Part shown: in pieces, positions 23,070 to 43,379 of the stretch
How positions within the stretch are numbered: the stretch's first letter is position 1
Layout of the letters: each line of letters opens with the position of its first letter
From: an uncultured Lachnospiraceae bacterium
GTDB taxonomy: Bacteria; Bacillota; Clostridia; Lachnospirales; Lachnospiraceae
DNA length: 64,000 nucleotides
Assembly: GCA_900317825.1 (NCBI GenBank)
Contig: ONIH01000004.1
Coordinates: 96,089-160,088 of the forward strand
Direction of reading: 5' to 3'
Translations under genes and position numbers: made by a program
Notes under the pieces: model-generated
What the model was told of the DNA's origin: nothing
Seen by the model: only the letters and a program-made list of their open reading frames with translations
Database searches by the model: none

Positions 23070-24267
23070 GTCGGCGGGTGCTTACTACGACCACGATCAC
23101 TTCAAAAAGTATATAGCATGAAAGCGGAATTATCTGCGCGTAGCTGGCGCCGTTCATGCCCCAGGTTCCTATCGCCGGTCTGACTGTCAGTGCGAAAAAA
23201 ATAAAATCCGCGATCATTCCTGCTGCCACCGCCACATTCTGGCGCAGTGCCACGAGTACGCCCTGGAACCAGTAGACGAAGGTATTTATGATGACCACGA
23301 TCACCACTGGAATGAACAGCTCATAGTAGTCAAGTATTTCCTTGCCAAAGAAAATCCCCAGCACCCATCTGCCAAGCAGTGCTGCAATTATCAGGACGAA
23401 TACAGCAAAAACGGCCAGAATTCCGGTAACTTTCAGGACATTTTTCTTAAAAGCCTTGAAATCCTGCTCACTGAGCTTCTCAGCGAGCACCGGCAGAAAT
23501 GGAGCAAACATCGCTGCTCCCATGACCTGTACCGCATAAGTCGGATTCGAAATAGAGGCGTAGATTCCCTGTTTCGCGACTCCCATGACATCCTGCAGCA
23601 CGGTCTTCGCGTACATTACCTGCATGCTCATAAAAAAAGTGAAAAGCATCAGCGGTAAACAGCTTAAATACAGTTTAAATATCTTCGAGTCCTTCAGGTG
23701 CAATCTGATAGTTGTGATTTTTGAAGTAAGTCGCATATCCCAGAGTATAGAGATTGCAAAAGTGGCGATTGAAATGATCACAAGCGTAACTGCAAGATTC
23801 TTCGTCAGGACAAGCCCTGCTACGAATATCACGATTATCGCCACGCCTCTGATCGCGAACGATTTTCCTATCAGGTCATACCTGTCATGCATCTGGTCGA
23901 TCCCGTGGAAGGCATCTGAGAAGGCTTCCGAGAGTCTGACCGGCATGAAGGCTATAATGCAGACTGCCTGATACACCGACCCGCTGAACGCTGCCGCCAC
24001 AGCCAGGAACGCATATGCCGCTATGCAGCTTATGACTCTGCTCGACACATACTGCCCATCCGAATACACATGCTTCGCGTCTGTTATCTGATAGTTTCTC
24101 ATCGCAAACAGCGCTATCGCATTATACGTGCTGCTCGTCGTCATCGCTAGCGACAGATACCCGGCATCCTCAAACGACCCGAGCCTCACGACGATGATCG
24201 TAATGACCCAGGTGCAGAACCCATAAAAAATATTTCCAAAAGTATTCCAGGCGATGTCTTTTTTCAT
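23047..24267 (-). CDS. Polysaccharide flippase (Wzx/MATE-like)
   Basis: A 406-residue polytopic membrane protein with about 12 hydrophobic segments, starting MKKDIAWNTFGNIFYGFCTW as in oligosaccharide flippases. It would move lipid-linked sugars across the cytoplasmic membrane. It follows the AT-rich glycosyltransferase gene after an 82-base gap holding a G-rich hairpin, and its own base composition is like the core genome rather than the AT-rich block. It sits at the 3' end of the surface polysaccharide operon. Co-presence with the Wzt/Wzm exporter suggests either two export modes or that this flippase serves a second glycan. Confidence 0.82.
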   Translation of the reverse strand: MKKDIAWNTFGNIFYGFCTWVITIIVVRLGSFEDAGYLSLAMTTSSTYNAIALFAMRNYQITDAKHVYSDGQYVSSRVISCIAAYAFLAVAAAFSGSVYQAVCIIAFMPVRLSEAFSDAFHGIDQMHDRYDLIGKSFAIRGVAIIVIFVAGLVLTKNLAVTLVIISIATFAISILWDMRLTSKITTIRLHLKDSKIFKLYLSCLPLMLFTFFMSMQVMYAKTVLQDVMGVAKQGIYASISNPTYAVQVMGAAMFAPFLPVLAEKLSEQDFKAFKKNVLKVTGILAVFAVFVLIIAALLGRWVLGIFFGKEILDYYELFIPVVIVVIINTFVYWFQGVLVALRQNVAVAAGMIADFIFFALTVRPAIGTWGMNGASYAQIIPLSCYILFEVIVVVVSTRRLEKNAGR

Positions 24268-24280
24268 TTGTTTGTCCTGT

Positions 24281-24347
24281 GGTAAGGGAGGTAGGGGTTA
24301 GGAGCGAAGGACTGGTTTCTATACCCTACACCCTTACCCCTATGCCC
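24281..24347 (-). other. G-rich hairpin / putative G-quadruplex upstream of the flippase
   Basis: On the coding (minus) strand four G runs (24345-24347, 24337-24340, 24331-24333, 24324-24326) with 4-, 3- and 4-base loops fit the canonical G-quadruplex pattern. The same G-rich strand can instead pair with the C-rich stretch closer to the flippase start (about 24281-24300), giving an alternative hairpin. It lies within about 57 bases of the flippase ATG and marks the left border of the AT-rich block. Confidence 0.5.
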
Positions 24348-24349
24348 TC

Positions 24350-26824
24350 CTATCCTAGCTGAAAAGGTCCAAAGTTAATATTGAAATTCGGATTATAGTA
24401 GGGATCACCTTCTGAAAGCTCCTTTTCATACCTTTCCTGAAAGGTTTTTATCTCACCCTCGAATCTCCTTATCTTCTCAGGGTCATCCTCATAGCCTCTG
24501 GACTTTGATTCATAATGATGCCAGATTGAAAACGCATTATAGACTACAAGCAGGTTTTTTCTTCTTACCTTCATACAATAGTCAATATCGTTGCATGACA
24601 CTCTGAATGCCTCGTCAAATCCGCCCAATGACTCAAACAGGCTCCTGCGTGTCATCAGGCAGGCCCCGGTCACTGCACTGTAATCACAATTTAATAGTGC
24701 TCTCATCATATAGCCCGGTTGATCCTTATCTATACCTGTATTAATATGTCCTGCGAAGCCTCCAAAGCCTATAACTACTCCGGCGTGCTGAACAGTATCA
24801 TCCTCATACAGAAGCTTTGCGCCTACCACTCCAACCTCAGGTCTTTCAAAAAAGCCTGCCATATTTGCAATGGAATCTTCCCTGATCAGTTCAGTATCAT
24901 TATTGAGAAACAGCAGCAGATCTCCTTTTGCTTCCTTTTCTGCAAGATTATTTATCCTCGAAAAATTAAATGTCATTTTACCAAGGTCAACAATTCTTAC
25001 ATTATCATATTGTTTTTGCACATCAGAGTAATAGCTCTTTATCTTCTGAGAAGTGCTATTGTTTTCAGCAACGATTATCTCAAAATTTCTATACGTACTC
25101 TTCTCTTCTATAGAATCAATACATTGCTTCAGAAGATCACGCTGTTCATAATTCGGTATTATTATTGACAACAGCGGCTTACTTACAGGTTCATAATCCA
25201 CCTCATACAGACCATAGTTTGGTTTTTCCTGCATCCTGACCTTTGCCCTGATATGACTTCTTTCAAGATGAGACTCTATTGCCTTCTGCCCGGCAATATA
25301 TGCATATTTTTTACTCTCCGGATCAAGCGCTGTAGATCCCGGAAGCATTCTCCAATGATACAGTACCTTTGGAATATGCATAATAGGACCTGTCTTTTCT
25401 GCGACTCTCAGAATCATATCGTAGTCCTGTGCTCCATCAAACTCGCTTCTGAAGCCACCTGTTTCATCCAATACAGACCTTTTTACAACAAAAAAATGCG
25501 TTATATAATTATGACTTCTAAGCAGATCCAGATTGAAATCCGGTTTCATATTAGGATCTATATAAGTCTTTCCCTTTGTGTCATATTTATCCTCATCGGT
25601 ATAGAAAGCCACAGGCTTTTCAGTATTATTGATTGCTTTTACCACCTCGTATAAAGCGTCTGGTTCAAGCAGATCATCGTGGTCGAAGAGTCCGACAAAA
25701 TCACCGTTTGCAAGCTCAAGTGCTTTATTCGTATTCCCTGATATACCATAGTTTTTATCAAGGAAAGTCACCTTTACTCTCTGGTCATGTTCCTGTATTT
25801 CATCAAGCAGTTTCCTTGCTGGTGCGCTTTCATCTCCAGCAAATGCTATACAAAGTTCCCATCTGTTATAGCTCTGTTGCTCAACAGAATCAATTGTTGC
25901 CTTAAGAAGATCCACATTTGTATTATATGCAGGTACTATAATACTTATAACAGGCTCACAGGCAAATCTTACCTGTTTCTGGGCTTCAAGATGATCAGGA
26001 GTTATTCGATGAGTTCTGAACCACTGATCATAATCATATCCGCCACTATATGAAAAGACTGTCTTCAGCGTTTTTGAAAGTCCAAAGGTCCTTACATACT
26101 TAAAAAACTTCTTAATATTCTTTCTGTTTATATTCTTTATCAGTCTGCCAAAGCCTCTCTTATCTGTACTTGTATAAGGAACCGCTTCAATTGCCCTATC
26201 CTTATCTGATGAAAAGGTTATTATATCACTGTTTTTTCTGGAACTCTCGAATGAAATAATAAATCCAGCGTTCTTTTCATCTTTATTGATCAAGCCCAGC
26301 CTGTAAAGGTCATTTCTGAAGATCCTTCTGATATTGCATGGAAGCTCTTTTTTCGTGTGCCTATCCATAACTGATATACTGACAGGTACATGATTCAAGG
26401 AATACACCCATCCCGTAACCGATGTATTCCCTTTCTTATCATGTGTTTCATTATCAATGGCATAAACAATTGTATCATATGAGATAATATGATCTATAGC
26501 CTTCTTATCCATTGACAGTATCACAGTATTGCCAGAGTGTATTTCCAGCTGGCTTATATACTCGCAATCATTCATCTGGATCCTGAAGCCAGAGTTGATA
26601 AGTCCCTCTGTCTGATGGAAATATCTTCTGTCCACGTCAGGACGAGCAACTGTTTTTATCTTAACATCCTGCTGCTTTCCGTTAATATAAAGAGTGATAG
26701 CCTCAGGCATACCATTCTCATTAAATGCCCATCCGCTTACTGTTAATACATCATGATCGGGCAGTCTATTTATTTTTAATGCATCGATTGAATTTCTTGG
26801 CTTCAATTTGTTCTTCCTTATCAC
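24350..26824 (-). CDS. Large glycosyltransferase: two GT2 domains behind two beta-sandwich modules
   Basis: 824 codons. Residues about 28-200 hold two copies of a module with a GW...GF pattern (GW at 31-32 and 138-139, RPDV at 61-64, GF at 79-80 and 187-188). Then two GT-A/GT2 domains: VISIIVPAYN near 290 with DDLLEPDAL and DEDKYD, and LLSIIIPNYE near 555 with LFLNNDTELI. No membrane segment, so it builds the glycan on the cytoplasmic face. The first codon read here is GTG at 26824 without a clear ribosome site; a TTG at 26806 has AAGGAAG at 6 bases and may be the true start. The gene is visibly AT-rich. Its 5' end is duplicated at 27686-27763. Confidence 0.85.
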   Translation of the reverse strand: MIRKNKLKPRNSIDALKINRLPDHDVLTVSGWAFNENGMPEAITLYINGKQQDVKIKTVARPDVDRRYFHQTEGLINSGFRIQMNDCEYISQLEIHSGNTVILSMDKKAIDHIISYDTIVYAIDNETHDKKGNTSVTGWVYSLNHVPVSISVMDRHTKKELPCNIRRIFRNDLYRLGLINKDEKNAGFIISFESSRKNSDIITFSSDKDRAIEAVPYTSTDKRGFGRLIKNINRKNIKKFFKYVRTFGLSKTLKTVFSYSGGYDYDQWFRTHRITPDHLEAQKQVRFACEPVISIIVPAYNTNVDLLKATIDSVEQQSYNRWELCIAFAGDESAPARKLLDEIQEHDQRVKVTFLDKNYGISGNTNKALELANGDFVGLFDHDDLLEPDALYEVVKAINNTEKPVAFYTDEDKYDTKGKTYIDPNMKPDFNLDLLRSHNYITHFFVVKRSVLDETGGFRSEFDGAQDYDMILRVAEKTGPIMHIPKVLYHWRMLPGSTALDPESKKYAYIAGQKAIESHLERSHIRAKVRMQEKPNYGLYEVDYEPVSKPLLSIIIPNYEQRDLLKQCIDSIEEKSTYRNFEIIVAENNSTSQKIKSYYSDVQKQYDNVRIVDLGKMTFNFSRINNLAEKEAKGDLLLFLNNDTELIREDSIANMAGFFERPEVGVVGAKLLYEDDTVQHAGVVIGFGGFAGHINTGIDKDQPGYMMRALLNCDYSAVTGACLMTRRSLFESLGGFDEAFRVSCNDIDYCMKVRRKNLLVVYNAFSIWHHYESKSRGYEDDPEKIRRFEGEIKTFQERYEKELSEGDPYYNPNFNINFGPFQLG

Positions 26825-26881
26825 ATCCGGATCTTTAATGTCTCTTTGTCTTTATCAGGGCTCAGTCCTACTGACATTTTA
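26747..26881. repeat. 135-bp direct repeat, copy A (at 5' end of the large GT2 gene)
   Basis: Matches 27686-27820 in the same orientation with only two mismatches by eye, at a constant offset of 939 bases. It covers the first codons of the GT2 gene, its upstream region and the stop of an acetyltransferase remnant. Weaker similarity continues to about 26984. Confidence 0.93.
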
Positions 26882-26984
26882 AAACCATGCTTCTGTATCT
26901 ACCGTTTCCGTAGATCATATCTTTAAACACCCCTTCTTCTTTAAATCCCATTTGCTTATTATAACATTTGCTGTTGGCTCTTTT
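26868..26984 (-). pseudogene. C-terminal remnant of a GNAT acetyltransferase
   Basis: About 38 codons before a stop at 26868-26870 read NSKCYNKQMGFKEEGV then FKDMIYGNGRYRSMV and KCQ, closely matching the end of the intact acetyltransferase at 27807-28307 (FREEGVFKDMIYQNGRYRSM) with a four-codon deletion near the end. No start codon or acetyl-CoA motif remains, and an in-frame stop lies just upstream. Substitutions relative to the intact gene exceed those in the 135-bp repeat, so this is a diverged allele. Confidence 0.85.
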
Positions 26985-27009
26985 TCACATACTCATGATC
27001 ATGTCGTAT

Positions 27010-27327
27010 TCACTCACCATCAAACAGAACCCTCATATAATCACTCGCTCCGTATAGAACTCTTATAATCTCTATATATGTGCTATGAATCCTATAAAAA
27101 GCATAGTATTTCTTATATACTACAAAATACATCCCCGTTGGATGCTCATTATAAAGAAGTGGAATACCTGTCTTAGGATACCCAGCCTTTTTACTGATGG
27201 CTTGCCTTATTCCATCCACATAATTCTGTGCTGTATCTATATCAGCGGATACATCAAACACCTCTGACCATATCTGATCCAGATCATCCAATGCAGCATG
27301 CGTATATTTTACTGGACTACTGTTCAA
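27010..27327 (-). CDS. RelE/ParE-family toxin
   Basis: A 105-residue protein of the ParE/RelE fold: KYTHAALDDLDQIWSEV at the N-terminus, a middle helix with YVDGIRQAI, and the terminal strands YFVVYKKYYAFYRI and IEIIRVLYGASDYMRVLF. Proteins of this family either cut mRNA on ribosomes or poison gyrase; sequence alone does not decide, though the DDLDQIW start and ending favour the ParE-like/YoeB-like broad group. It overlaps the antitoxin gene by 11 bases, the normal TA layout. The pair is inserted between two halves of a duplicated segment in the polysaccharide operon. Confidence 0.87.
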   Translation of the reverse strand: MNSSPVKYTHAALDDLDQIWSEVFDVSADIDTAQNYVDGIRQAISKKAGYPKTGIPLLYNEHPTGMYFVVYKKYYAFYRIHSTYIEIIRVLYGASDYMRVLFDGE

Positions 27328-27610
27328 TTGCGTGCTCCTTTAGATATTTTTCCCTGCGTATCCTGAAATGCTCACTAACTTCATCATCTGTAAGAAGATC
27401 CTCATTCTCCCCAGATCTGATACCCTTATTCAGTTCGGATAACAGCTCTACCATTGCATTTGCTTTTTCATACTTGTCATCATCCTCTATACTATGTATG
27501 CTGTATATCCCCTCACCATTTCTAGTCAGATAAACTGGTGAGCCAGGCGATACCTTATCTAATACCTGTCCATAGTTACGCAGATCTGATACTGGTTTTA
27601 TTACTGGCAT
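27317..27610 (-). CDS. Phd/YefM-type antitoxin
   Basis: A 97-residue DNA-binding antitoxin. MPVIKPVSDLRNYGQVLDKV is the classic Phd/YefM N-terminus, followed by SPVYLTRNGEGIYSI; the C-terminal half is acidic and helical, as needed to wrap the toxin. ATG at 27610 follows AGGAGG. A near-palindrome around the -10 of its promoter (about 27632-27647) could be the operator for autoregulation. Confidence 0.88.
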   Translation of the reverse strand: MPVIKPVSDLRNYGQVLDKVSPGSPVYLTRNGEGIYSIHSIEDDDKYEKANAMVELLSELNKGIRSGENEDLLTDDEVSEHFRIRREKYLKEHAIEQ

Positions 27611-27634
27611 AAGCTTACCTCCTTATCTGAATAC

Positions 27635-27663
27635 ATTGTATCATCCTTCGATATATCATTCAA
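27635..27663 (-). promoter_or_regulatory. Promoter of the toxin-antitoxin pair
   Basis: Minus strand TTGAAT, 17 bases, TACAAT, about 25 bases before the antitoxin ATG. The -10 lies in an imperfect palindrome TGATACA-AT-GTATTCA, a plausible Phd-type operator. The pair is therefore expressed independently of the surrounding operon. Confidence 0.65.
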
Positions 27664-27763
27664 CATATTTTACGAAAGCTCTTCGTACATCATGATCTGG
27701 CAGTCTATTTATTTTTAATACATCGATTGAATTTCTTGGCTTCAATTTGTTCTTCCTTATCAC
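27656..27763 (-). pseudogene. 5' fragment of the large GT2 gene
   Basis: From the GTG at 27763 the first 26 codons match the start of the intact GT2 gene (KLKPRNSID, KINRLPDHDV) almost exactly, then diverge into about nine unrelated codons and stop at 27656-27658. It lies directly behind the intact acetyltransferase, exactly where the full GT2 gene would be expected before the insertion. Confidence 0.85.
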
Positions 27764-27820
27764 ATCCGGATCTTTAATGTCTCTTTGTCTTTATCAGGGC
27801 TCAGTCCTACTGACATTTTA
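27686..27820. repeat. 135-bp direct repeat, copy B (3' end of the acetyltransferase)
   Basis: Partner of 26747-26881. It covers the last codons of the intact acetyltransferase, the intergenic DNA and the GT2 5' fragment. Together the copies flank the toxin-antitoxin cassette. Confidence 0.93.
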
Positions 27821-28307
27821 GACATGCCATAAAAACCATACTTCTGTATCTTCCATTCTGATAGATCATATCCTTGAATACTCCCTCTTCCCTGAAACCT
27901 ATTTTTCTATAGCTTCTTATAGCGGCCGTATTATCTTCAAATACACGGAGAAATATCCTATGCAATCCTAAGCTGTTGAAGCCATAATCCAACAGCAGTT
28001 TGCCTGCCATTGTTCCATATCCTTTTCCTCTGGCATCATCTTCTCCAATAAAGATGCCAAATTCCGCACTTTTATTTGTGCTGGAAATATCCCTGAGATA
28101 GCATGAGCCTACTGCCCTATCAGCAGCCTCGATAATGAATTGAGCCACTTCGCCCGTATCTACTTTCGTATGCAGCCAATGCAGATGTCCTTCTCTGGTA
28201 AAATCCTCCTGATAGACAAAATTCTTCTTTACCTTTTTATTATTACGCCATTTCACTATTTTATCAGTATCCTGTTCATTTATAGGCCTGATAGATATAT
28301 TACTCAT
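27807..28307 (-). CDS. GNAT N-acetyltransferase, probably amino-sugar specific
   Basis: 166 residues from the ATG at 28307, which overlaps the stop of the GtrB-like gene by 8 bases; an ATG three codons upstream has its GGAG too close. The GNAT core is visible: GIFIGEDDARGKGYGT (acetyl-CoA P-loop) and the FREEGVFKDM ending. Similar RimJ/RimL-type enzymes acetylate 4-amino sugars on nucleotide carriers. Placed three genes after a WecE-like transaminase, it probably makes a 4-acetamido-4,6-dideoxyhexose nucleotide. The 3' end is duplicated at 26868-26984. Confidence 0.8.
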   Translation of the reverse strand: MSNISIRPINEQDTDKIVKWRNNKKVKKNFVYQEDFTREGHLHWLHTKVDTGEVAQFIIEAADRAVGSCYLRDISSTNKSAEFGIFIGEDDARGKGYGTMAGKLLLDYGFNSLGLHRIFLRVFEDNTAAIRSYRKIGFREEGVFKDMIYQNGRYRSMVFMACLKCQ

Positions 28308-29253
28308 TGTCAGCATTCTCCAGATTTATAGTATCTTTGATAACGTACTGCGGCGAGTCATTAATACACATATATATTCTTCCCACATACTCACCAATAA
28401 GCCCCAGTATTATCATTATAAGACCAGTTGAAAAAAGTATTACAGCCATAATCGAGCTATATCCCATCGGTACAGCTGGTTCTATTAGCTTTTTGACTAT
28501 TATGATTATTCCATATACAAAACCGATGACCGCAAATAAAAAACCGGCTACTGCCGCGAATCTCAGAGGCTTAACAGAAAACGCTGTAAGCCCATTGATA
28601 AATAGGGACAGTGACCTTCTGAATGTAAAACCCGTAGTATTATCATCTGCCCTTGATCTCTCATCCATTACAACAGTCTTAATATTTCTGGTAACTCTTA
28701 GTATTAAGCCTTCCAGATAAGGATATGGATTCTTGTAATTTGTTATTTCATCAGCTATATATTTTTTCATAATGCTGAAATTTTCAAATCGCAACCCCTT
28801 TTCCTTATCAAGCATTTTCTCAGACATCCAGGAATTAATAAAGCTTCCTATTCTTTTTCCCCTTGACTCCTTCTTGTCTGTATATTCCGCTGTACTGACG
28901 TCATATCCTTCATTCTCTACCGGTTCAAGAAGCCTCCATAGCTCCGTAACCGGACACTGAAAGTCATCATCTAAATTAACAATATACGCTCCTTTTGCCA
29001 CTGCAAATCCAGCTAATATTGCCGAGTGTTTTCCCATATTTTTCGCAAAGTCTATTACTTTTACCCTGCAATTCTTTGCCGCAATAAGTGAAAGCACTTT
29101 ATATACATTATCTGGTGAGCAATCATTTACAGCGATGATTTCATAATCATATTCAGGTCTCTCTGAAACCACTTCTATAATCTCATCTATTACGCTTCTT
29201 ATAGTATGTTCACTTCTATAGCATGGAATAACAAAACTCAGCAAAGTACTCAT
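28300..29253 (-). CDS. GtrB/ArnC-like polyprenyl-phosphate glycosyltransferase
   Basis: A 317-residue GT2 enzyme with a cytoplasmic GT-A domain (LLSFVIPCYRSE at the start, NDCSPDN, LDDDFQCP as the metal-binding motif) and two C-terminal membrane segments (about 228-255 and 264-290). This architecture loads a sugar onto undecaprenyl phosphate on the inner face of the membrane. It overlaps the aminotransferase gene by 4 bases and the acetyltransferase by 8. With the DUF2142 GT-C-like protein it would form a pathway in which the modified amino sugar is loaded, flipped and added to the glycan outside the cell. Confidence 0.85.
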   Translation of the reverse strand: MSTLLSFVIPCYRSEHTIRSVIDEIIEVVSERPEYDYEIIAVNDCSPDNVYKVLSLIAAKNCRVKVIDFAKNMGKHSAILAGFAVAKGAYIVNLDDDFQCPVTELWRLLEPVENEGYDVSTAEYTDKKESRGKRIGSFINSWMSEKMLDKEKGLRFENFSIMKKYIADEITNYKNPYPYLEGLILRVTRNIKTVVMDERSRADDNTTGFTFRRSLSLFINGLTAFSVKPLRFAAVAGFLFAVIGFVYGIIIIVKKLIEPAVPMGYSSIMAVILFSTGLIMIILGLIGEYVGRIYMCINDSPQYVIKDTINLENADNE

Positions 29254-30380
29254 TTATCAAAAAACCCTTTAATAGTATCAACTACCTTTTTTCTGTCCGT
29301 ATTCGTTAAACCATAATACAATGGCAGCCTCACCAGTCGCTCGCTTTCTCTTGTGGTATATATATCCTCTCCAGCAAATCGTCCGAACTTATATCCTGCC
29401 GGTGCCGAATGTAATGGAATATAATGAAATACGAGCATAACTCCTCGTTTCTTACAATAATCAATCAGCGCTGTCCTCTCCTGCAGATCCCTGCACTTCA
29501 TGTAATACATATGTGCATTATGCTCACAGTACTCAGGTAAAAATGGGAGCTCTACCTTTCCTGACGCTGCCAGATCCTGAAGCTGCTCATTATAGTAATT
29601 CCATGTCTCCATTCTATCTTTTTCTATTTTATCAGCCGACTCCAACTGAGCCCATAGATATGCCGCATTAAGCTCGCTCGGAAGGTAACTGTCCCCGAAA
29701 TCGACCCAGGTATACTTATCCACCTGACCTCTGAAAAATTTTGCACGATTTGTTCCTTTTTCACGAAGTATCTCTGCCTTTTCGTTGTACTCCCTGTTAT
29801 TTATGACAAGAGCTCCGCCCTCGCCCATAGAGAAATTCTTCGTCTCGTGAAAGGAATAGCATCCGAAATCTCCTATGGTTCCCAGATATCTGCCCTTATA
29901 CTTACTAGTCACTGCCTGTGCTGCATCCTCTATGACCTTTAGCCCATGTCTGGTTGCTATATCCATGATCGTATCCATCTCACAGGCTACCCCGGCATAG
30001 TGGACACAGCAGATGACCTTTGTCCTATCTGTTATGGCTGCTTCGATCTTTTTCTCATCGATATTCATGGTATCTGGTCTGATATCCACGAAGACAAGCC
30101 TTGCGCCGCAAAGAACCGCGGCATTGGCCGTACTTGAAAATGTATAGCTCGGAAGAATCACCTCATCACCCTGCTTCAGCTCACAAAGCTCAAAGGCCAT
30201 ATCAAGAGCCGTAGACCCGCTGGTGGTCAGCATGACCTTTTCCGCGTCAAATCGGCTTTCCAGCCACTCATTACATTTCTTTGTGAACGCTCCGTCGCCA
30301 CAGATCTTATGCGATTCGATGGCCTGCTTTACATAGTCTAATTCTTTTCCCACATATGGTGGAATGTTAAAGTTTATCAT
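29250..30380 (-). CDS. WecE/RffA-like dTDP-4-oxo-6-deoxyhexose aminotransferase
   Basis: A PLP enzyme of the DegT/DnrJ/EryC1 family, 376 residues, the length of WecE. TSGSTALDMAFEL (phosphate cup), EDAAQAV and the Schiff-base Lys181 in SFHETKNFSMGEGGAL are visible; the HETKN form is typical of the WecE subgroup. It would convert dTDP-4-keto-6-deoxyglucose to the 4-amino sugar, which the nearby acetyltransferase can acetylate. It overlaps the DUF2142 gene by 4 bases (ATGA) and the GtrB-like gene by 4. No rmlA/rmlB genes are in this window, so the precursor comes from elsewhere. Confidence 0.85.
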   Translation of the reverse strand: MINFNIPPYVGKELDYVKQAIESHKICGDGAFTKKCNEWLESRFDAEKVMLTTSGSTALDMAFELCELKQGDEVILPSYTFSSTANAAVLCGARLVFVDIRPDTMNIDEKKIEAAITDRTKVICCVHYAGVACEMDTIMDIATRHGLKVIEDAAQAVTSKYKGRYLGTIGDFGCYSFHETKNFSMGEGGALVINNREYNEKAEILREKGTNRAKFFRGQVDKYTWVDFGDSYLPSELNAAYLWAQLESADKIEKDRMETWNYYNEQLQDLAASGKVELPFLPEYCEHNAHMYYMKCRDLQERTALIDYCKKRGVMLVFHYIPLHSAPAGYKFGRFAGEDIYTTRESERLVRLPLYYGLTNTDRKKVVDTIKGFFDK

Positions 30381-31687
30381 GATGGCAAATATACTCCTAT
30401 GAATGAATATAACGCAAGTACGACAACTATTCCTGTTAATATCACTGTCACGATGTTTTTCCTTTTATCTATTGCAGCTATTCCCACAGCACTTTCTATA
30501 GTAAGCGCAGGAATAAGAGACATAATATATCGTCCCTGTGCCTGATAATCTGATGAATATGAATACCACAATGACAGGATGATCGGAATCACAAATTCTA
30601 AAATAATAAAAGCTCTGAACACAACCTCCGATTTACATTTATTATATGCCAGCTTTGCAGTAGATACAATAAATATGGTTATAAATAACAAGAACATCAA
30701 AAAATATGTTACCCATATCCATCCCGGAACCGGATATTGCATATAGCCAAAGCAACCTATAAAGCTATTTAATGTACTCCTCCACCACTCACGGCTTATA
30801 AGAAGATATACAAAAGGTACTCCCTGCGACATAAGCGATAAGCGGTTTTCCGGTTTCATCTCCGTAGTGGCATATCTGCTTTGCGCTGCCCCCATAGATG
30901 CTCTGCCCAATAAATCCCCATGATAAATCACCAGATTTCTGATAAAGAAGAATGATACTACTCCCAGCACTAATATACAAATCAGGGCTGTCACCTTCCA
31001 CATTTTTTTATCCGGCTTATTGGGACCTATCTGAAGTAAATGTGTGATAAAGAAGAAAAATATGCTGCCCAGTATCCACCCGTATCCAAAATAATAGGAC
31101 AGAGACACAATTATGATTCCTGCTGACAGTAATAAGCCATTTTTATAATTCCATCCGTCCTGTATTCCACAGACCCAAGATAACAGAATTATAGAAGTTC
31201 CCAAAAGATTTAAGCTGTCCTGATTTACATAGCTTCCTAAAAATGTAATCTGTGGCAGCATCGAAATAAGGATGAGTGTCATCCACTTTACTCTTCTTGA
31301 AAATAGTCTATCAAGAGTTCTTGCGAGACAATAAACCATTCCACTGATAGAAAGCACACTCACAAATCGTGCAGCCACAACGAGCTTAAACTCACTGGCT
31401 CCAAATATCGATACTACATGCATGAAAAAAGCTGCTATAATCGGCTCCAACCATGTCGGCATAAATGCATATGAAAATCCCCAGATCTGATTACGAATCT
31501 CGGGATCATCTCCCAATGGAAGTCTGCCATGATTATATATATATAGTGGCAGGTCATAGCGCATCTGCTCATCCGGAGCATAGTTAAACGGTTTTAGAAC
31601 ACTCCAGATAAACATGTATATACCTATTGCTATTACAAACAGCACTTCCAGTCTTATTTCCTGTTTGTCAGCTTTTGACTTTCCCAT
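30377..31687 (-). CDS. DUF2142 polytopic membrane protein (GT-C-like)
   Basis: About 436 residues with roughly ten membrane segments. The first outer loop carries PFNYAPDEQMRYDL, the acidic motif of the DUF2142/GT-C fold, and QGRYIMSLIPAL near the C-terminus is another family mark. GT-C enzymes take sugars from polyprenyl phosphate on the outer face. I use the ATG at 31687, preceded by AGGAG at 7 bases; the longer reading from 31735 overlaps wzm by 17 bases with no better site. Neighbours WecE- and GtrB-like suggest it transfers the amino sugar. The gene marks the right edge of the AT-rich block. Confidence 0.75.
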   Translation of the reverse strand: MGKSKADKQEIRLEVLFVIAIGIYMFIWSVLKPFNYAPDEQMRYDLPLYIYNHGRLPLGDDPEIRNQIWGFSYAFMPTWLEPIIAAFFMHVVSIFGASEFKLVVAARFVSVLSISGMVYCLARTLDRLFSRRVKWMTLILISMLPQITFLGSYVNQDSLNLLGTSIILLSWVCGIQDGWNYKNGLLLSAGIIIVSLSYYFGYGWILGSIFFFFITHLLQIGPNKPDKKMWKVTALICILVLGVVSFFFIRNLVIYHGDLLGRASMGAAQSRYATTEMKPENRLSLMSQGVPFVYLLISREWWRSTLNSFIGCFGYMQYPVPGWIWVTYFLMFLLFITIFIVSTAKLAYNKCKSEVVFRAFIILEFVIPIILSLWYSYSSDYQAQGRYIMSLIPALTIESAVGIAAIDKRKNIVTVILTGIVVVLALYSFIGVYLPS

Positions 31688-31718
31688 TACCTGTCTCCTG
31701 TCTTCAACTTCCATCATA

Positions 31719-32492
31719 CTAGAACTGCTCCGCAAATCCCTTTTGCAGCCTGTTGAAGATCGCGACAGCGATCAGGAACAGGATAAAGGAGCCGAGGAAT
31801 ACTATGCCTATCGCACGGAGATTCGGGATCTGGTGATTCATAAAGACATCCCGGTAGCCATCCATGATGTGGGTCATCGGATTGAGCTCTATCATGGCAC
31901 TGATTCGGGAGCCCTCCGGAAATATCGATTTCTCGTAGATGATCGGGGCTCCATACATCGCCATCATCAGGATGAAATTCACGATGTACTCGGTGTCCTG
32001 GATGTAGGCGTCGATAGCTCCGAAGATAGTGCCAAGTGCCAGACCGAAGAGTCCCTCAGTCACAGCTATAAGCGGCACGAAAACCAGGTGCCACGAGATT
32101 CCCATTCCGAATATCAGGCAGAAAAATACTATGATCACACACGATATGAAAAAATTGATGAGTCCTGAGAAAAATGCCGAAAGCGGCAGGATGATCCTCG
32201 GAAAATAAACCTTCTTTATGATGCCAGAGTTCGACTTGATGCAGGTCGTCGACTGGTTCACTACCGTCTGGAAAAAAGTCCACGGGATGATACCGGTGAC
32301 CAGGTAGACTACGTAGTGATCTGCAGCGCCTTTCATCAGATACGGAAAGACGATAGCATATACGAGCACCTGAAGCAGCGGATTTATAAAAGACCAGAGT
32401 ACGCCAAGAACAGAGGCCTTGTAGCGGCCCCTGATATCCTTTTTCACATTCGTCTTTAATAATTCCCTGTAATCGTATATTTCTCTGAGCAT
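31719..32492 (-). CDS. wzm: Polysaccharide ABC exporter permease (Wzm/TagG type)
   Basis: An ABC-2-type permease of 257 residues with six membrane segments; starts with the family N-terminus YRELLKTNVKKDIRGRYKAS and has IPWTFFQTVVN in the first loop. With the ATPase upstream (one-base overlap, TAATG) it exports finished lipid-linked glycan. Base composition is like the core genome, unlike the next gene. Gram-positive relatives export teichoic acids or other wall glycans. Confidence 0.92.
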   Translation of the reverse strand: MLREIYDYRELLKTNVKKDIRGRYKASVLGVLWSFINPLLQVLVYAIVFPYLMKGAADHYVVYLVTGIIPWTFFQTVVNQSTTCIKSNSGIIKKVYFPRIILPLSAFFSGLINFFISCVIIVFFCLIFGMGISWHLVFVPLIAVTEGLFGLALGTIFGAIDAYIQDTEYIVNFILMMAMYGAPIIYEKSIFPEGSRISAMIELNPMTHIMDGYRDVFMNHQIPNLRAIGIVFLGSFILFLIAVAIFNRLQKGFAEQF

Positions 32493-38612: not shown

Positions 38613-40745
38613 TCAGTCCCAGCCTAAGGCTCTGCGCTTTGCCTTCATGTCTTCGACTATCTGCTCACCGAGCTTGGCAGGGTCTACATTTACGACCATG
38701 TGTGAGCCGAGCGTCTCTTCTGTACCCAGCTTCAAAAATTCGATGACATTTTTCGAACCGAAGATCTGGGCCTCGACACAGTGGTATGACGAGATTCCCA
38801 TAAGCCTGAACGCTAGCGCCGCGTCTATTCCCTTTTCGTTGCTCCACTCAGGAGATGAGAAGGCGTACGGCATATCCGGAATGTCTACTCCAAGAGCAGC
38901 TGCTATGCCGCCGAGGATTCCCGATGATCTGGTGTTATCGATGCACTCACCGACATGCCATACCGGCGGAAGGTCAGGAGCTAAGAATTCCTGTAAGTCT
39001 TTTCCTGCCCTGCTCCAGGCATCCTTTTCACAGAAGCCGAGCTTCATCAGAGGATAGGAGGCGCAGCCATTTGAGAGGATAAGGACGTTATTCTTCACGA
39101 GGACATCTGCCACATCCACTATGCATCTCTCATAAGGGACCTTCGGATTGTTGCATCCGACCATATTTACGATGCCGAGGATCTGACCGCTCTTTAAAGC
39201 CTCTGCTATCGGAGCGAAGCTGCCGAATCTCTTCATCAGATACTCTACTGAAAATCCGACTTCTGCCGTGACTTCGTATGGCGGGATGTAGACAGGGATT
39301 CCCTTTCTCTGCTCGAAGCTATCGATGGCGCGGGTCACGATGCGCTTAGCCAGCTCCTTTGCCTCGCCGATATTTGAATGGTGTCTGTCGAACTCCATCC
39401 TCTCTGCTCCAGGAAGTCTCGCCGATGCGCTCGTAGTCACGACAGTTGTCCTGTAGCAGTTCGCAACATCCATGATGCCTGGGAAGACATCCTGCACGTC
39501 TGCCACCCAGAGGTCAAGAGCTCCGGTCATCAGGACAAGCTCTGCCGATACAGCATTTGAAAGCGGGATGACTCCGTCGTATCTGTACATGGCTGAAAGT
39601 CCGCTGCAGCAGATGCCGTAGAACTGGATTCCCTTTGCGCCTTTGGACTTCGCGAGTTCTATCATCTCTTCGGTCTGTCCGCATTTTACTATCTCTTTTA
39701 CGAGGAGAGGCAGATGTCCGTGGACTGCGATGTTCACGTAGCCTTTTTTCAGGGCGCCGATATTTACCTTCGAAGTGACCCTGTCGCCGACTCCAAAGAG
39801 ACTGTCCGTAGCTATCGAAGCTCCTGCCACTCCAGAGAAGCAGAACGCTAGTCCGCAGCGAAGGAACTGCTCCATCGTGCTCTTCCAGTCTCCGTCAGTT
39901 CCCACTCCTGTCTTGTGATATGCCTCAAATACTTCGTGATACGCGCTTATCGGTATCAGGTCTAAGTCCTTCCAGGTCTTTACTCGCTCAGCCGGAGCGC
40001 AGACTTCGAGAGTCTTGTACTCATGCTCCGGGTCCGGACTCGACAGGTCATCGAGCAGAGCCTTTGCTAAGTCGTATGCTACATTCTTCAGCTGTCTGTG
40101 CTCTGTCTTTATGCCGAAGGCCTTAGCAGTCGAGAGTATCTTCTGCTTTCCGAGAAGCGGTTCGTCGAGTTTTCCCTCGGCCGCCCACATCAGCTCGAGC
40201 ATCAGCTCTCTGGCATGCATTCCGTGCTGGGCTGCACCGGCCGCTGCCGCACGGAGCAGATTTCTCGCTACGATAAGGTCTGCGTCTGCTCCGCAGACTC
40301 CCTTCTTTGCCTTCTGGGTGATACGGCACGGGCCCATGTTACAGATCTTGCAGCAGATGCCTGCCATGCCGAAATTACACTGAGGCTGCTGTTTGTCAAA
40401 TCTGTCAAAAGTCGTATCGATGCCTAACTGTTCCGAGCGAAGGAGCATCTCCCTGATCGCCGGGTCTGCTGTTTTTTCTATCTGCTCCTGCTTGTTCGGG
40501 AATGTCTTTCTGTAAGCGGAAACTGCATTCATATAGTCTTTGATGAATGCGTCTTCGTCCTCTTCCGTTTCCTCGTGATGATGATGGTGGCTGTGCCCAC
40601 TCTGAGAAAAATCTCCGTTTTCTACTGCCTGGTAATCAGCGTCTATATCCTCGCTGCTGTGTGCCGAGGCTTTCAGAGTGACTGTAGGGATACCATTCTC
40701 ATCAAAGCCTATAAGGTTCCTGTGACTGTGGATCTTTTCGACCAT
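38613..40745 (-). CDS. cooS: CooS-family Fe/S protein lacking one canonical Ni,Fe-cluster cysteine
   Basis: 710 residues with the full fold of anaerobic CO dehydrogenase catalytic subunits. Cys123, 131, 132, 135, 140 and 151 match the B- and D-cluster ligands. Of the six C-cluster ligands of Carboxydothermus CODH-II, five are present: His344 (VHGH), Cys380 (YGICC), Cys531 (MVGCNN), Cys561 (SNGC) and Cys601 (GECIDN). The sixth, Cys333 in the DYQC motif there, is Asp419 here (DVQD, codon GAT). His174 and His177 of the proton path are kept, the third is Glu180. A His-rich stretch (GHSHHHHH, 50-57) precedes the fold. Such deviant enzymes (CooS-V type) do not oxidise CO and carry an Fe/S/O hybrid cluster. 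No cooC, cooF or cooJ nearby; a NitT/TauT-type transporter precedes it. Confidence 0.9.
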   Translation of the reverse strand: MVEKIHSHRNLIGFDENGIPTVTLKASAHSSEDIDADYQAVENGDFSQSGHSHHHHHEETEEDEDAFIKDYMNAVSAYRKTFPNKQEQIEKTADPAIREMLLRSEQLGIDTTFDRFDKQQPQCNFGMAGICCKICNMGPCRITQKAKKGVCGADADLIVARNLLRAAAAGAAQHGMHARELMLELMWAAEGKLDEPLLGKQKILSTAKAFGIKTEHRQLKNVAYDLAKALLDDLSSPDPEHEYKTLEVCAPAERVKTWKDLDLIPISAYHEVFEAYHKTGVGTDGDWKSTMEQFLRCGLAFCFSGVAGASIATDSLFGVGDRVTSKVNIGALKKGYVNIAVHGHLPLLVKEIVKCGQTEEMIELAKSKGAKGIQFYGICCSGLSAMYRYDGVIPLSNAVSAELVLMTGALDLWVADVQDVFPGIMDVANCYRTTVVTTSASARLPGAERMEFDRHHSNIGEAKELAKRIVTRAIDSFEQRKGIPVYIPPYEVTAEVGFSVEYLMKRFGSFAPIAEALKSGQILGIVNMVGCNNPKVPYERCIVDVADVLVKNNVLILSNGCASYPLMKLGFCEKDAWSRAGKDLQEFLAPDLPPVWHVGECIDNTRSSGILGGIAAALGVDIPDMPYAFSSPEWSNEKGIDAALAFRLMGISSYHCVEAQIFGSKNVIEFLKLGTEETLGSHMVVNVDPAKLGEQIVEDMKAKRRALGWD

Positions 40746-40782
40746 TTTTCCTCCTGATACATACTTTTATAGTGACTGCCCC

Positions 40783-40811
40783 ATTATAGCTTAAATGTAG
40801 TATTCTGTCAC
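40783..40811 (-). promoter_or_regulatory. Internal promoter candidate for cooS
   Basis: Minus strand GTGACA, 17 bases, TATAAT, overlapping the last codons of the ATPase gene. It would give cooS a private start about 30 bases before its ribosome-binding site (AGGAGG), in addition to read-through from the transporter genes. Confidence 0.55.
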
Positions 40812-41573
40812 ATCCGGCTGTTTTTCTTCGAAGCAGGTCATTACCTTGTCACGCACCGCGAGGAAATCGTCGCGGGTCCTGTCCCTGTGCGTGCCGATGT
40901 CTACTTTTATGATCTGCTTTATCCTGCCCGGATTCGGCTCGAGGATCACTATCCTGTCTGCTAAAAATACCGCCTCTTCTATGTCATGGGTCACGAAGAT
41001 GACTGTCCTGTTGCCCTCGAGCGAAAGCTTCAGGATATCGTCCTGCAGCTTCATCCTCGTGATGGCGTCGAGCGCCCCGAATGGCTCATCCATAAAAATG
41101 ATCTCAGGCTCTACGCAGAGTGCCCTGGCTATTGCCACTCTCTGCTGCATACCGCCTGACAGCTGGCCGGGGCGATATTTTTTATACTGCCCGAGACCTA
41201 CCATGCGAAGGTATTTGTCGGCTCTCTCTTTCTGTTCCTTCACAGGGATCTTTTCATCCTCGAGTCCTAAGAGCACGTTCTTCTCGACAGTTCTCCACGG
41301 AAGGAGACCGTAGTTCTGGAAGATCGTGATGTATTTTTTCTGCGGGCCGGTGACTTTGTTACCATCGATAAGTATCTCGCCGCTGTCTGGCTTTTCAAAT
41401 CCCGCCACGAGATTTAAGAGAGTCGTCTTTCCGCAGCCGGAAGCCCCCAGGAGACAGATGAATTCTCCCTTTTCTATGTCAAGGGACACATCCTTTAAGA
41501 CCTGCCTTTTTCCATTATCAGTCGGATAATATTTGTTTACGTCTTTTACTGTTATGTAGCTCATCTGCGTCAC
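40791..41573 (-). CDS. NitT/TauT-type ABC transporter ATPase
   Basis: 260 residues of the SsuB/TauB/NrtD group. Walker A GASGCGKTT (about 39-47), signature QLSGGMQQRVAIARAL, Walker B EIIFMDEPFGALD, H-loop FVTHDIEEAV; FQNYGLLPW is the subgroup's Q-loop form. It overlaps the permease gene by 4 bases and is followed after 45 bases by cooS. The group imports nitrate, sulfonates, taurine, cyanate or thiamine precursors; which one applies cannot be read. Confidence 0.92.
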   Translation of the reverse strand: MTQMSYITVKDVNKYYPTDNGKRQVLKDVSLDIEKGEFICLLGASGCGKTTLLNLVAGFEKPDSGEILIDGNKVTGPQKKYITIFQNYGLLPWRTVEKNVLLGLEDEKIPVKEQKERADKYLRMVGLGQYKKYRPGQLSGGMQQRVAIARALCVEPEIIFMDEPFGALDAITRMKLQDDILKLSLEGNRTVIFVTHDIEEAVFLADRIVILEPNPGRIKQIIKVDIGTHRDRTRDDFLAVRDKVMTCFEEKQPDVTEYYI

Positions 41574-42346
41574 CTGCTCTTTTCAAGGATACCGAATCCC
41601 CATTTTTCTTTTACGAGGTTCTCGAGGTATTTCATCAGTGCGTCAATTCCGAGACCGATAAGTCCGATGACTATGATCACGGCCGCGAGGATGTCCGTAC
41701 GGAGATTATTTCTCGCGTCGATGATCAGGTAGCCGAGTCCTGACTGGGTTCCTATCATCTCGCCCGCCACAAGAAAAATCCACGCTGTTCCACATGCCAT
41801 ATGAAATCCATTCATGATCTGCGGGAACGCTGCCGGGAAGATTATCTTCATAAGAGTCTTTCCGGTGCTTATGTCGAAGTTCGACGCGACTCTCAGATAG
41901 ACACGGTCGACATTCCTGACTGCTGAGACTGTCGATAAAAGTATCGGGAAAAATGCCGCGATAAAAATGACTACGTCTGCCGGGATGTCTCCGATCCCGA
42001 ACCAGAGCACGATGAACGGCATCCAGGCTATAGGTGAGATAGGTCTGATAAACTGCACGAGCGGATTTACAAATTCCCAGGACTTCGTGTAATATCCGAA
42101 GATCAATCCGAGGAAAACCGCGAGCACTGCTGCTATTATGTAGCCAGTCAGGTATCTCGACATGCTCGCTCCAATGTGTAAGTACAGGTTATCCTGCGTG
42201 ATCTCGTACCAGAGAGCCTTTACCGTCTGGAGCGGCGACGGGAAGAGCGAACGGTTGTAGATTCCTGCGTTCCAGTTCAGCTGCCAGATGACTATCACTA
42301 TGATGAATATCAGACTGCTTTTAAAAATTTTCTTCAGGACTTTCAT
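41570..42346 (-). CDS. NitT/TauT-type ABC transporter permease
   Basis: 258 residues, BPD_transp_1 fold with six membrane segments. The ATPase-contact EAA loop reads ASNFDISTGKTLMKIIFPAA (about 160-180), and IRPISPIAWMPFIVLWFGIG is the family hallmark of SsuC/TauC proteins. Overlaps the binding protein gene and the ATPase gene by 4 bases each, so the three are a translationally coupled importer. Confidence 0.92.
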   Translation of the reverse strand: MKVLKKIFKSSLIFIIVIVIWQLNWNAGIYNRSLFPSPLQTVKALWYEITQDNLYLHIGASMSRYLTGYIIAAVLAVFLGLIFGYYTKSWEFVNPLVQFIRPISPIAWMPFIVLWFGIGDIPADVVIFIAAFFPILLSTVSAVRNVDRVYLRVASNFDISTGKTLMKIIFPAAFPQIMNGFHMACGTAWIFLVAGEMIGTQSGLGYLIIDARNNLRTDILAAVIIVIGLIGLGIDALMKYLENLVKEKWGFGILEKSR

Positions 42347-43320
42347 TTCGCTTTTCCTCCCTTCTGGTAGACGAAGTCGCCGAATGTCGGCGGATTTTCA
42401 TTGAGTCCATACTGTTTCATCTTCTCCGAAAGCGTATCGTAGTTATCCTCTGTGATCTCCAGGTCGTCGTATGAGATCCACTGGAGTGACTGCTCCAAAA
42501 CGTTCTTCGTTCCCTTCAGGTATTCTGTCGCGAGTGAAAGTTCCTCGTCCTTATCGGAGTTCAGGCTGTCTCCAGTCTCTAAGTATTTATCTAAAAATTC
42601 ATCGGCGGTATCCTGGTGCTCTTTCGACCAGTCGGTGTTCCAGACGAGTCCGCAGCAGATGGAATCCTTCCAGAGATTTTCGGAAGTCTCTAACACGTGT
42701 CCTATTCCTTTGCCGACAGCCTGTGCTCCGAAAGGCTCGGCCACACAGTAGGCATCGATCTTCTTGCTCTGGAGTGCGAAAGGCATCTCTGTCGGAGCGA
42801 GCTCCAGGAAGGTCACATCGCTGTCCGAAAGCCCCGCTGACTGCAGGTACTGTCTCAGTAAAATATTGTGGGAAGACTGGGGACTTGGAATGGCTACGCT
42901 CTTTCCTTTGAGGTCTTCGGCACTTTTTATATCGTTCGAGCCGATTATGACGTTTCCGTCCCTGTGCCCCAGGGCTGCAAGCTGCAGATGCGAGCCTGAA
43001 TCGTAAGCCTTTATCGCAAGCTCTACGAGAACAGAAGCCGCGTCTACATTTCCGGAGCTCAACGCATCCATGAGCTCAGGCCAGGAACCGTACTTTACGA
43101 GTTCTATCTTTATATCGCTGTTCTTATCCGCATCGAGTTCCTTTGCGAGCTCTAGTACAGGAAGCGAATGGGTGATAGGAAGATAGGCGACCTTTATGGT
43201 CTCTACATCCTTTTTCTCAGCGTGGATCGAATACTGGTAGTAGATCACGCTGCTCAGTATGAATGCGGCAAAGACTATTGCCGCCGTAGCTGATGCTATC
43301 GATTTTGCTTTTTTCTTCAA
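42343..43320 (-). CDS. NitT/TauT-type substrate-binding protein (membrane-anchored)
   Basis: 325 residues, NMT1/SsuA-like type II binding fold: IKVAYLPITHSLPVLELAKE begins the first lobe, LKGKSVAIPSPQSSHNILLRQYL is the hinge/ligand region and VAEPFGAQAVGKGIG the second. The N-terminus is a positively charged membrane segment with no lipobox, so it is probably an uncleaved anchor rather than a lipoprotein. The start is TTG at 43320 behind AGGAGG (9-base spacing). Six Cys-poor but two adjacent Cys (SICCGLVW) occur in the second lobe. The ligand is unknown; coupling to a CooS-V-like enzyme hints at an anionic nitrogen or sulfur compound. Confidence 0.88.
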   Translation of the reverse strand: MKKKAKSIASATAAIVFAAFILSSVIYYQYSIHAEKKDVETIKVAYLPITHSLPVLELAKELDADKNSDIKIELVKYGSWPELMDALSSGNVDAASVLVELAIKAYDSGSHLQLAALGHRDGNVIIGSNDIKSAEDLKGKSVAIPSPQSSHNILLRQYLQSAGLSDSDVTFLELAPTEMPFALQSKKIDAYCVAEPFGAQAVGKGIGHVLETSENLWKDSICCGLVWNTDWSKEHQDTADEFLDKYLETGDSLNSDKDEELSLATEYLKGTKNVLEQSLQWISYDDLEITEDNYDTLSEKMKQYGLNENPPTFGDFVYQKGGKAK

Positions 43321-43379
43321 AAAAATACGCCTCCTGTCATATCCTACTATTCTTATATGATTACTATGAATATGTAACC

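Follow-up and report, generated by a model that had tools for sequence, protein, structure and literature searches.

We analysed a stretch of 64,000 nucleotides (hereafter, the window) of contig ONIH01000004.1 from an uncultured Lachnospiraceae bacterium, in which an operon on the minus strand carries the genes of a NitT/TauT-type ATP-binding cassette (ABC) importer, namely a substrate-binding protein (SBP), a permease and an ATPase, followed by a gene for CooS, the catalytic subunit of anaerobic carbon monoxide dehydrogenase (CODH). We found that this operon, together with an Asp residue that stands in place of a Cys ligand of the CooS C-cluster, is of the already described group B-1 type of clade B and is not new; the Asp is normal for this group. 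The importer and CooS form a real evolutionary pair, and the best explanation that we can offer for the pair, put forward tentatively, is that the importer supplies a metal, nickel, to an Asp-ligated CODH.

The window CooS is of the clade B group B-1 type

The four open reading frames (ORFs) that the original prediction had assigned to the importer and CooS were verified on the minus strand (Table 1), where they form one operon-like run with 45 bp between the ATPase and CooS genes. CooS exceeded the NCBIfam cut-off of the anaerobic CODH model TIGR01702 (503.1 vs 478 bits). In a search of the Protein Data Bank (PDB), its best matches were true CODHs (E 2.7e-130), and 7b7q, which we take to be CooS-V, came far lower (E 4e-85). 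When CooS was aligned to the CODH-II chain 9tox, the numbering of which is offset by 3 from CODH-II numbering by our own count, Asp419 faced the Cys of DYQC, which is Cys333 of CODH-II, while His174 faced His93 and Lys638 faced Lys563. The codon of Asp419, read at 39491-39489, is GAT as predicted. Asp occupies this position in 81 of 81 CooS (the window protein and 80 close relatives, a sample of close kin made up of the best 80 of 538 confirmed CooS relatives at 72-84% identity), and because all 80 relatives also have it, Asp419 is not a sequencing slip. The same 81 proteins retain the remaining C-cluster ligands as well as the acid-base residues, His and Lys. In addition, invariant columns across 9 proteins bear out the predicted retention of the B/D-cluster Cys residues (123, 131, 132, 135, 140 and 151) and of the other C-cluster ligands (His342, Cys379, Cys531, Cys561 and Cys601).

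In CODH-II, Cys333 presumably ligates an iron of the [3Fe-4S] part of the C-cluster and not the Ni or the pendant iron, and we take Cys526 to be the nickel ligand. Since the equivalents of Cys526, of the two pendant-iron ligands His261 and Cys295 and of the acid-base residues His93 and Lys563 are all kept, the window CooS probably still carries a Ni-Fe-S cluster and performs CO/CO2-type chemistry, although the redox potential of an Asp-ligated C-cluster is perhaps shifted.

Group B-1 of clade B was described by Inoue 2019 (PMC6344411; papers with PMC numbers are cited here from excerpts of their text) as replacing the second C-cluster Cys by Asp or Glu and carrying 4-48 His in a His-rich stretch at the N-terminus. 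Besides Asp419, the window CooS has 9 His within residues 1-65, a type II D-cluster of the Cys-(X)7-13-Cys-Cys form (Cys123-X7-Cys131-Cys132), the acid-base residues His174 and Lys638, and nearby NitT/TauT genes of the COG0600/0715/1116 type, which were assigned by Pfam and NCBIfam rather than by COG. On the tree, it groups with CooS of Butyrivibrio and Ruminococcus (SH-aLRT 100), which are clade B genera (Butyrivibrio in PMC11338639, R. flavefaciens in PMC13056359); the placement in clade B rests on these genus names, the CooS accessions of the cited papers being absent from our trees. In a quick tree that gave a long-branch warning, 9 CooS with an intact C-cluster Cys and 9 Asp-type CooS lay on one side of a branch and 21 other CooS on the other (SH-aLRT 100; a motif filter had removed L004, L005, L008, L233, L235 and L241 from this test), and this one-sided grouping fits clade B. 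Compared with the group as exemplified by WP_026514536 (PMC6344411), the window shares the Asp at Cys2 of the C-cluster, the other C-cluster residues, the acid-base His and Lys, the type II D-cluster, the His-rich N-terminus and the adjoining NitT/TauT genes. No group-defining difference was found; what sets the window apart is a sister group of six CooS with no adjacent importer and an SBP with no lipobox Cys. We regard the identity of CooS as a clade B group B-1 type protein as settled.

Inoue 2019 also noted that NitT/TauT transporters accompany all clade B groups, and already proposed Ni import with His-rich delivery (PMC6344411). A 2026 survey found ABC transporter genes in 64% of clade B operons, almost all of them without maturases, and states that biochemical characterisation of any clade B CODH is still awaited (PMC13056359). 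A 2024 gut survey reports ABC-transporter contexts and calls their role unknown (PMC11338639), and a further study calls the transporters functionally unknown and associates ABC transporter genes with clades B and D-F (PMC8776680). The excerpted text of the 'Ca. Galacturonibacter' paper (PMC7000372) showed no bearing on this operon.

The importer is linked to CooS beyond close relatives

With cut-offs for the SBP and the cassette that we chose ourselves, here as for the other neighbourhoods below, a complete cassette was found adjacent to CooS in 63 of the 80 close relatives (46 upstream and 17 downstream), and 4 more had a partial cassette cut by a contig end. No cassette was present in 5 relatives whose flanks could each be read for 3 kb or more, nor in 8 with a cut flank. 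Linkage was not restricted to this set, since 3 of 8 deeper Asp-type relatives from the phylum sample were also linked; the other 5 had no SBP at E <= 1e-20 anywhere in the genome. In the phylum sample, an SBP above 139 bits occurred in 18 of 398 genomes, 15 of which also hold an Asp-type or intact-Cys CooS of clade B or B-like type. Sampled carriers of clade B CooS are mostly gut and rumen bacteria. Two metagenome-assembled genome records named Spirochaetales and Thermoguttaceae (L069 and L098) carry a Ruminococcus-like CooS with the cassette, by mis-binning or transfer.

The same SBP-permease-ATPase cassette also adjoins CooS proteins that have Cys in place of the Asp, no His-rich arm and about 40% identity to the window CooS. 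Twelve such CooS with an intact C-cluster (L012-L023, 39-42% identity), which probably belong to group B-4 of Inoue 2019, were identified, and all 8 of the neighbourhoods fetched were linked. A close SBP was also found in the intact-Cys genomes G002 and G111 (same contig, near CooS) and G125 (other contig); in the twelfth, G162, none was shown on a short contig. The linkage is thus independent of the Asp, and the Asp was rejected as the cause of the linkage. Because the cassette adjoins 8 of 8 intact-C-cluster relatives, it gives no ground for inferring a non-CO active site. Two expectations of the original prediction held: among the sampled CooS, the Asp occurs on a single branch and is not scattered among ordinary CODHs, and the linkage reaches deeper relatives.

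The window CooS is sister to six CooS, L033-L038 (SH-aLRT 100 for all seven together), none of which has an adjacent cassette in the sequence visible (611 bp downstream for L033 and 2645 bp upstream for L037). Two of these genomes (G398 with L033, G401 with L036) hold two clade B CooS, one alone and a second with the cassette elsewhere (L118, L143). A genome-wide search of the other four (G399, G400, G402 and G403) found no close SBP, with one match of E 1.7e-6 in G403. The tree requires 4 changes for the genome-wide SBP trait and 5 for adjacency, which shows that the linkage was lost or gained several times.

The substrate-binding protein resembles a zinc-titled structure

The closest PDB sequence to the window SBP is 3UN6 (E 7.8e-57, 37% identity). 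We take it to be SAOUHSC_00137, and we know of no CooS link of this S. aureus protein. The predicted model of the SBP (pLDDT 91.7) also had 3UN6 as its best structural match (rmsd 1.5, TM 0.91 on target), with SsuA, TauA, NrtA and CmpA ranking below it, so that fold and sequence both place the SBP in the 3UN6 type. The title of the 3UN6 entry reads 'Ligand Binding Component of ABC-type Import System from Staphylococcus aureus with Zin...'. Trp80, His119, His151, Glu195, Cys222 and Cys223 are invariant in 3UN6 and in 85 SBPs, which comprise 77 from Asp-type genomes including the window and 8 from intact-Cys genomes, all with clade B or B-like CooS, some genomes being counted twice and four of the loci (L113 and L115-L117) having no CooS in view. 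Of the 24 SBPs from loci without a CooS gene, all retain His119 and Cys223, and 22 retain His151.

The NitT/TauT fold is common to the SBP and to NrtA, CmpA and the regulatory domains of NrtC and CmpC. An alignment to the regulatory domain of CmpC shows Trp80, His151 and Glu195 in common, which makes Glu195 uninformative, whereas His119 faces Thr and Cys223 faces Lys. In NrtA, nitrate is held by Lys269, His196, Gln155, Trp102 and Gly240 (PMC13204499). The anion-binding Lys has no counterpart in the window SBP, as judged from the CmpC/NrtC domain alignment and not from NrtA itself. Nothing was found in favour of the nitrogen oxyanion that the original prediction had suggested as substrate, and nitrate import was rejected on the missing Lys.

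A lipobox Cys is present in 76 of the 77 Asp-type SBPs, the window protein being the exception and apparently anchored by a transmembrane segment. At two loci (L170 and L171), proteins of ~600 amino acids carry an SBP-like domain with Asp51, His119 and Cys222-Cys223 behind a long N-terminal part, and are possibly sensors that use the same binding domain.

A related cassette is linked to a flavoprotein

Close SBPs (E <= 1e-50) were found in 23 genomes of a separate sample, 398 genomes from the class of genome G357, probably Bacilli, and all 23 neighbourhoods were fetched. An acyl-CoA-dehydrogenase-like flavoprotein gene adjoins these 3UN6-related cassettes in 23 of 23 neighbourhoods, an SCO4226-like (PF14026) gene in 22 of 23, and a gene for an HxlR-type regulator in 12 of 23, one of them a weak match. 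No CooS gene occurs in any of the 23, and a genome-wide CooS search of two of the genomes, G357 and G169, gave no match. Conversely, SCO4226-like, flavoprotein and HxlR-like genes were searched for in the neighbourhood ORF sets of the CooS loci and were not found. A further SBP locus, L178 of G042, has none of the three neighbours. The regulators next to the cassette at L176 (7348-7815) and L177 (6876-7316) have, by eye, a Cys/His-rich C-terminal tail, which could bind metal.

All five SCO4226-like proteins checked passed as Pfam PF14026 members. SCO4226 of S. coelicolor is a Ni-induced protein that has a low affinity for the metal (PMC4186839). Two of the SCO4226-like proteins were scanned with the Ni_bind_SCO4226 model, which one matched at 24.7 bits against a cut-off of 125 and the other did not match; because of this, the PF14026 linkage is a hint of nickel only, and its use as proof of nickel was weakened. 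A limited literature search found no description of the flavoprotein-linked neighbourhood, and in the excerpt of the S. aureus GraSR study, genes 00136-00138 are listed on similarity alone (PMC3128592). The flavoprotein-linked cassette offers a second system for finding the ligand, with a related crystal structure.

Nickel supply is a tentative best explanation for the importer

In the mechanism that we tentatively favour, the importer would take up a transition metal, with Ni2+ or a nickel complex as the likeliest form, through a putative His/His/Cys pocket of the SBP; the His-rich N-terminal arm of CooS would buffer this metal, which would be inserted without CooC into the C-cluster, where Asp in place of Cys would ligate one iron of the [3Fe-4S] part. 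Metal import is suggested by the B-1 signature of CooS, by the closeness of the SBP to the zinc-titled 3UN6 and by the invariant His/His/Cys residues; the pocket argument uses the zinc in the entry title and not the coordinates of a zinc site. A further hint is that a 'nickel responsive' PF14026 gene accompanies the cassette in 22 of the 23 genomes from the class of G357. The genome of the window (1.94 Mb, 90% complete) also counts in favour of nickel, as it encodes HypD/HypE and an Ech-type [NiFe] hydrogenase that has a pair of Cys at either end (all by eye), and one CbiM/NikM-type gene. It encodes two Prismane proteins, CooS and one at 598.9 bits that we take for a hybrid cluster protein (HCP).

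We tested 93 genomes for CbiM/NikM, counting NikM only at a best E below 1e-50, so that weak matches in G424, G447, G407, G434 and G468 were scored absent. Among Asp-type genomes, a strong NikM match was less common where an SBP was present (14 of 73) than where it was absent (7 of 9; Fisher p 0.0008; G404, G406 and G409, with cut contigs, excluded), and none of the three genomes of undetermined status had a strong match. NicO was found in 0 of 70 genomes. In 50 genomes, NikA reached the curated cut-off in none, and lesser matches occurred in 44. The rarity of NikM with an SBP and the lack of NicO in those 70 genomes are compatible with nickel import. Fourteen SBP-positive genomes negative for NikM and NicO have a match to another Ni enzyme, of which the hydrogenase of G415 was the one viewed.

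Several results weigh against nickel supply. On the tree, the NikM contrast comes down to 3 independent pairs with no direction; having no independent support there, it does not decide for nickel import, and NikM co-absence, despite its raw Fisher p, was rejected as proof. Strong NikM is present in 8 of 8 intact-C-cluster genomes tested, and 2 of the 4 sister genomes with a lone CooS and no close SBP (G399, G400, G402 and G403) lack NikM. When 13 of the 14 genomes above (all except G447) were searched for NikA, a NikA-like match turned up in 12, scoring above 150 bits in 11, and G411 alone lacked one. The His-rich arm is uncoupled from the importer: L010-L017, L020 and L023 are linked and have no arm, and L004 has 41 His and no importer. 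The Ni-1 ligands of SCO4226, Asp43, Ser46 and His76 (PMC4186839), are not clearly kept in the SCO4226-like proteins, by eye and unaligned. Finally, a metal importer leaves the flavoprotein in 23 of 23 neighbourhoods unexplained.

This flavoprotein is the strongest point for a small-molecule substrate, just as the His/His/Cys residues and the zinc-titled structure are for a metal. A dedicated small-molecule importer, whose substrate would be converted by clade B CooS in anaerobes and by the flavoprotein with the SCO4226-like protein in the class of G357, is somewhat less probable than nickel supply, and the two stand close together as accounts of the SBP ligand. In its favour, NitT/TauT transporters usually adjoin the enzyme that uses their substrate. 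The flavoprotein and SCO4226-like linkage speaks for it too, as do the 15 of 18 phylum-sample genomes in which an SBP above 139 bits coincides with a clade B or B-like CooS, and the lack of maturation genes in nearly all operons of clade B (PMC13056359). Against it, an importer is missing both beside the gene and from the whole genome for many Asp-type CooS (5 of the 8 deeper relatives and 4 of the 6 sister genomes), no candidate substrate emerged, and the Lys of the nitrate/bicarbonate regulatory domain is missing. It is also conceivable, if rather unlikely, that the 3UN6-type importer brings in one ligand, a small molecule or a metal complex bound in the His/His/Cys pocket, which clade B CooS would handle in anaerobes, and the flavoprotein with its SCO4226-like partner in Bacilli-type genomes. 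Clade B CooS would then be the anaerobic counterpart of the flavoprotein pathway and not primarily CO enzymes. The ligand of the importer would tell whether clade B CooS are nickel-fed CO dehydrogenases or something else.

Two further proposals fare much worse. The original prediction saw a CooS-V-like reductase with an Fe/S/O hybrid cluster, whose substrate, such as a nitrogen oxyanion, N-oxide or sulfonate, the importer would bring in. One C-cluster Cys is indeed replaced on a common CODH scaffold, as in CooS-V (clade D-1; PMC9311411; PDB 7b7q), an importer is linked, and the SBP fold is that of sulfonate and nitrate binders; but the ligand is the wrong one. CooS-V of C. hydrogenoformans exchanges Cys295, which serves the pendant iron, for Glu (PMC9311411), and the class III HCP of M. 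marburgensis has Glu217 at the Cys295 position and Cys261 at the Cys333 position (PMC10502027). The window CooS has the opposite pattern, with Cys379 at the Cys295 position and Asp419 at that of Cys333. In group D-1, Tyr also replaces His93 and the D-cluster is of type III (PMC6344411), whereas the window CooS keeps the His and a type II D-cluster and groups with clade B genera, not D. The same importer also stands beside intact-C-cluster relatives. The hybrid-cluster model is accordingly very improbable and was rejected on the residues at positions 295, 333 and 93 and on the D-cluster type; a lost C-cluster Cys does not by itself mean hybrid-cluster chemistry, and the identity of the lost Cys decides. 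Hardly more credit, and if anything a shade less, is due to a CmpABCD-like importer of bicarbonate or another C1 anion that would feed CO2 to CooS. The fold shared with CmpA and NrtA, and Trp80, His151 and Glu195 shared with the CmpC regulatory domain, would fit such an importer, but His119 and Cys223 replace the Thr and Lys of that domain, and the cassettes from the class of G357 adjoin a flavoprotein gene, no carbon-fixation gene having been seen there.

Operon layout and other features of the window

The operon is flanked by tsaD and an O-antigen-ligase-like ORF (named by eye). No CooC, CooF, ACS or hydrogenase gene directly adjoins it, which bears out, for these immediate flanks, the predicted absence of CO-metabolism accessory genes. 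A regulatory RNA in the operon was rejected, as no Rfam family reached its gathering score between positions 38000 and 44600; three weak matches there (E 0.06-0.15), to miRNA and lncRNA families, were all below it.

Table 1. Coordinates of the operon and its features in the window.
Feature	Position	Strand	Remark
SBP, 3UN6-type, NMT1_2/SsuA superfamily	42343..43320	-	TTG start; transmembrane-type N-terminus, no lipobox Cys
Ribosome-binding-site-like AGGAGG ahead of the SBP start	43330..43335	-	read by eye
Permease (BPD_transp_1)	41570..42346	-	4 bp overlap with SBP gene
ATPase, NitT/TauT type	40791..41573	-	4 bp overlap with permease gene
CooS, anaerobic CODH catalytic subunit family, clade B group B-1 type, 710 aa	38613..40745	-	
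CooS N-terminal extension, residues 1-65	40551..40745	-	9 His, including HSHHHHH
Codon GAT of Asp419	39489..39491	-	position of CODH-II Cys333

Elsewhere in the window, positions 24001-32000 have a G+C content of 39-41%, compared with about 49% around them. The ORFs of this region were read by eye as a surface-polysaccharide cluster, with glycosyltransferases, a DegT-like aminotransferase, a Wzm/Wzt-like ABC exporter and a flippase. On the minus strand at 17945-20617, an ORF of 890 amino acids appears to encode a CCA-adding enzyme that continues, with no intervening stop, into a lipoprotein-type signal and a PEGA-like region (by eye), and is either a gene fusion or an assembly error.

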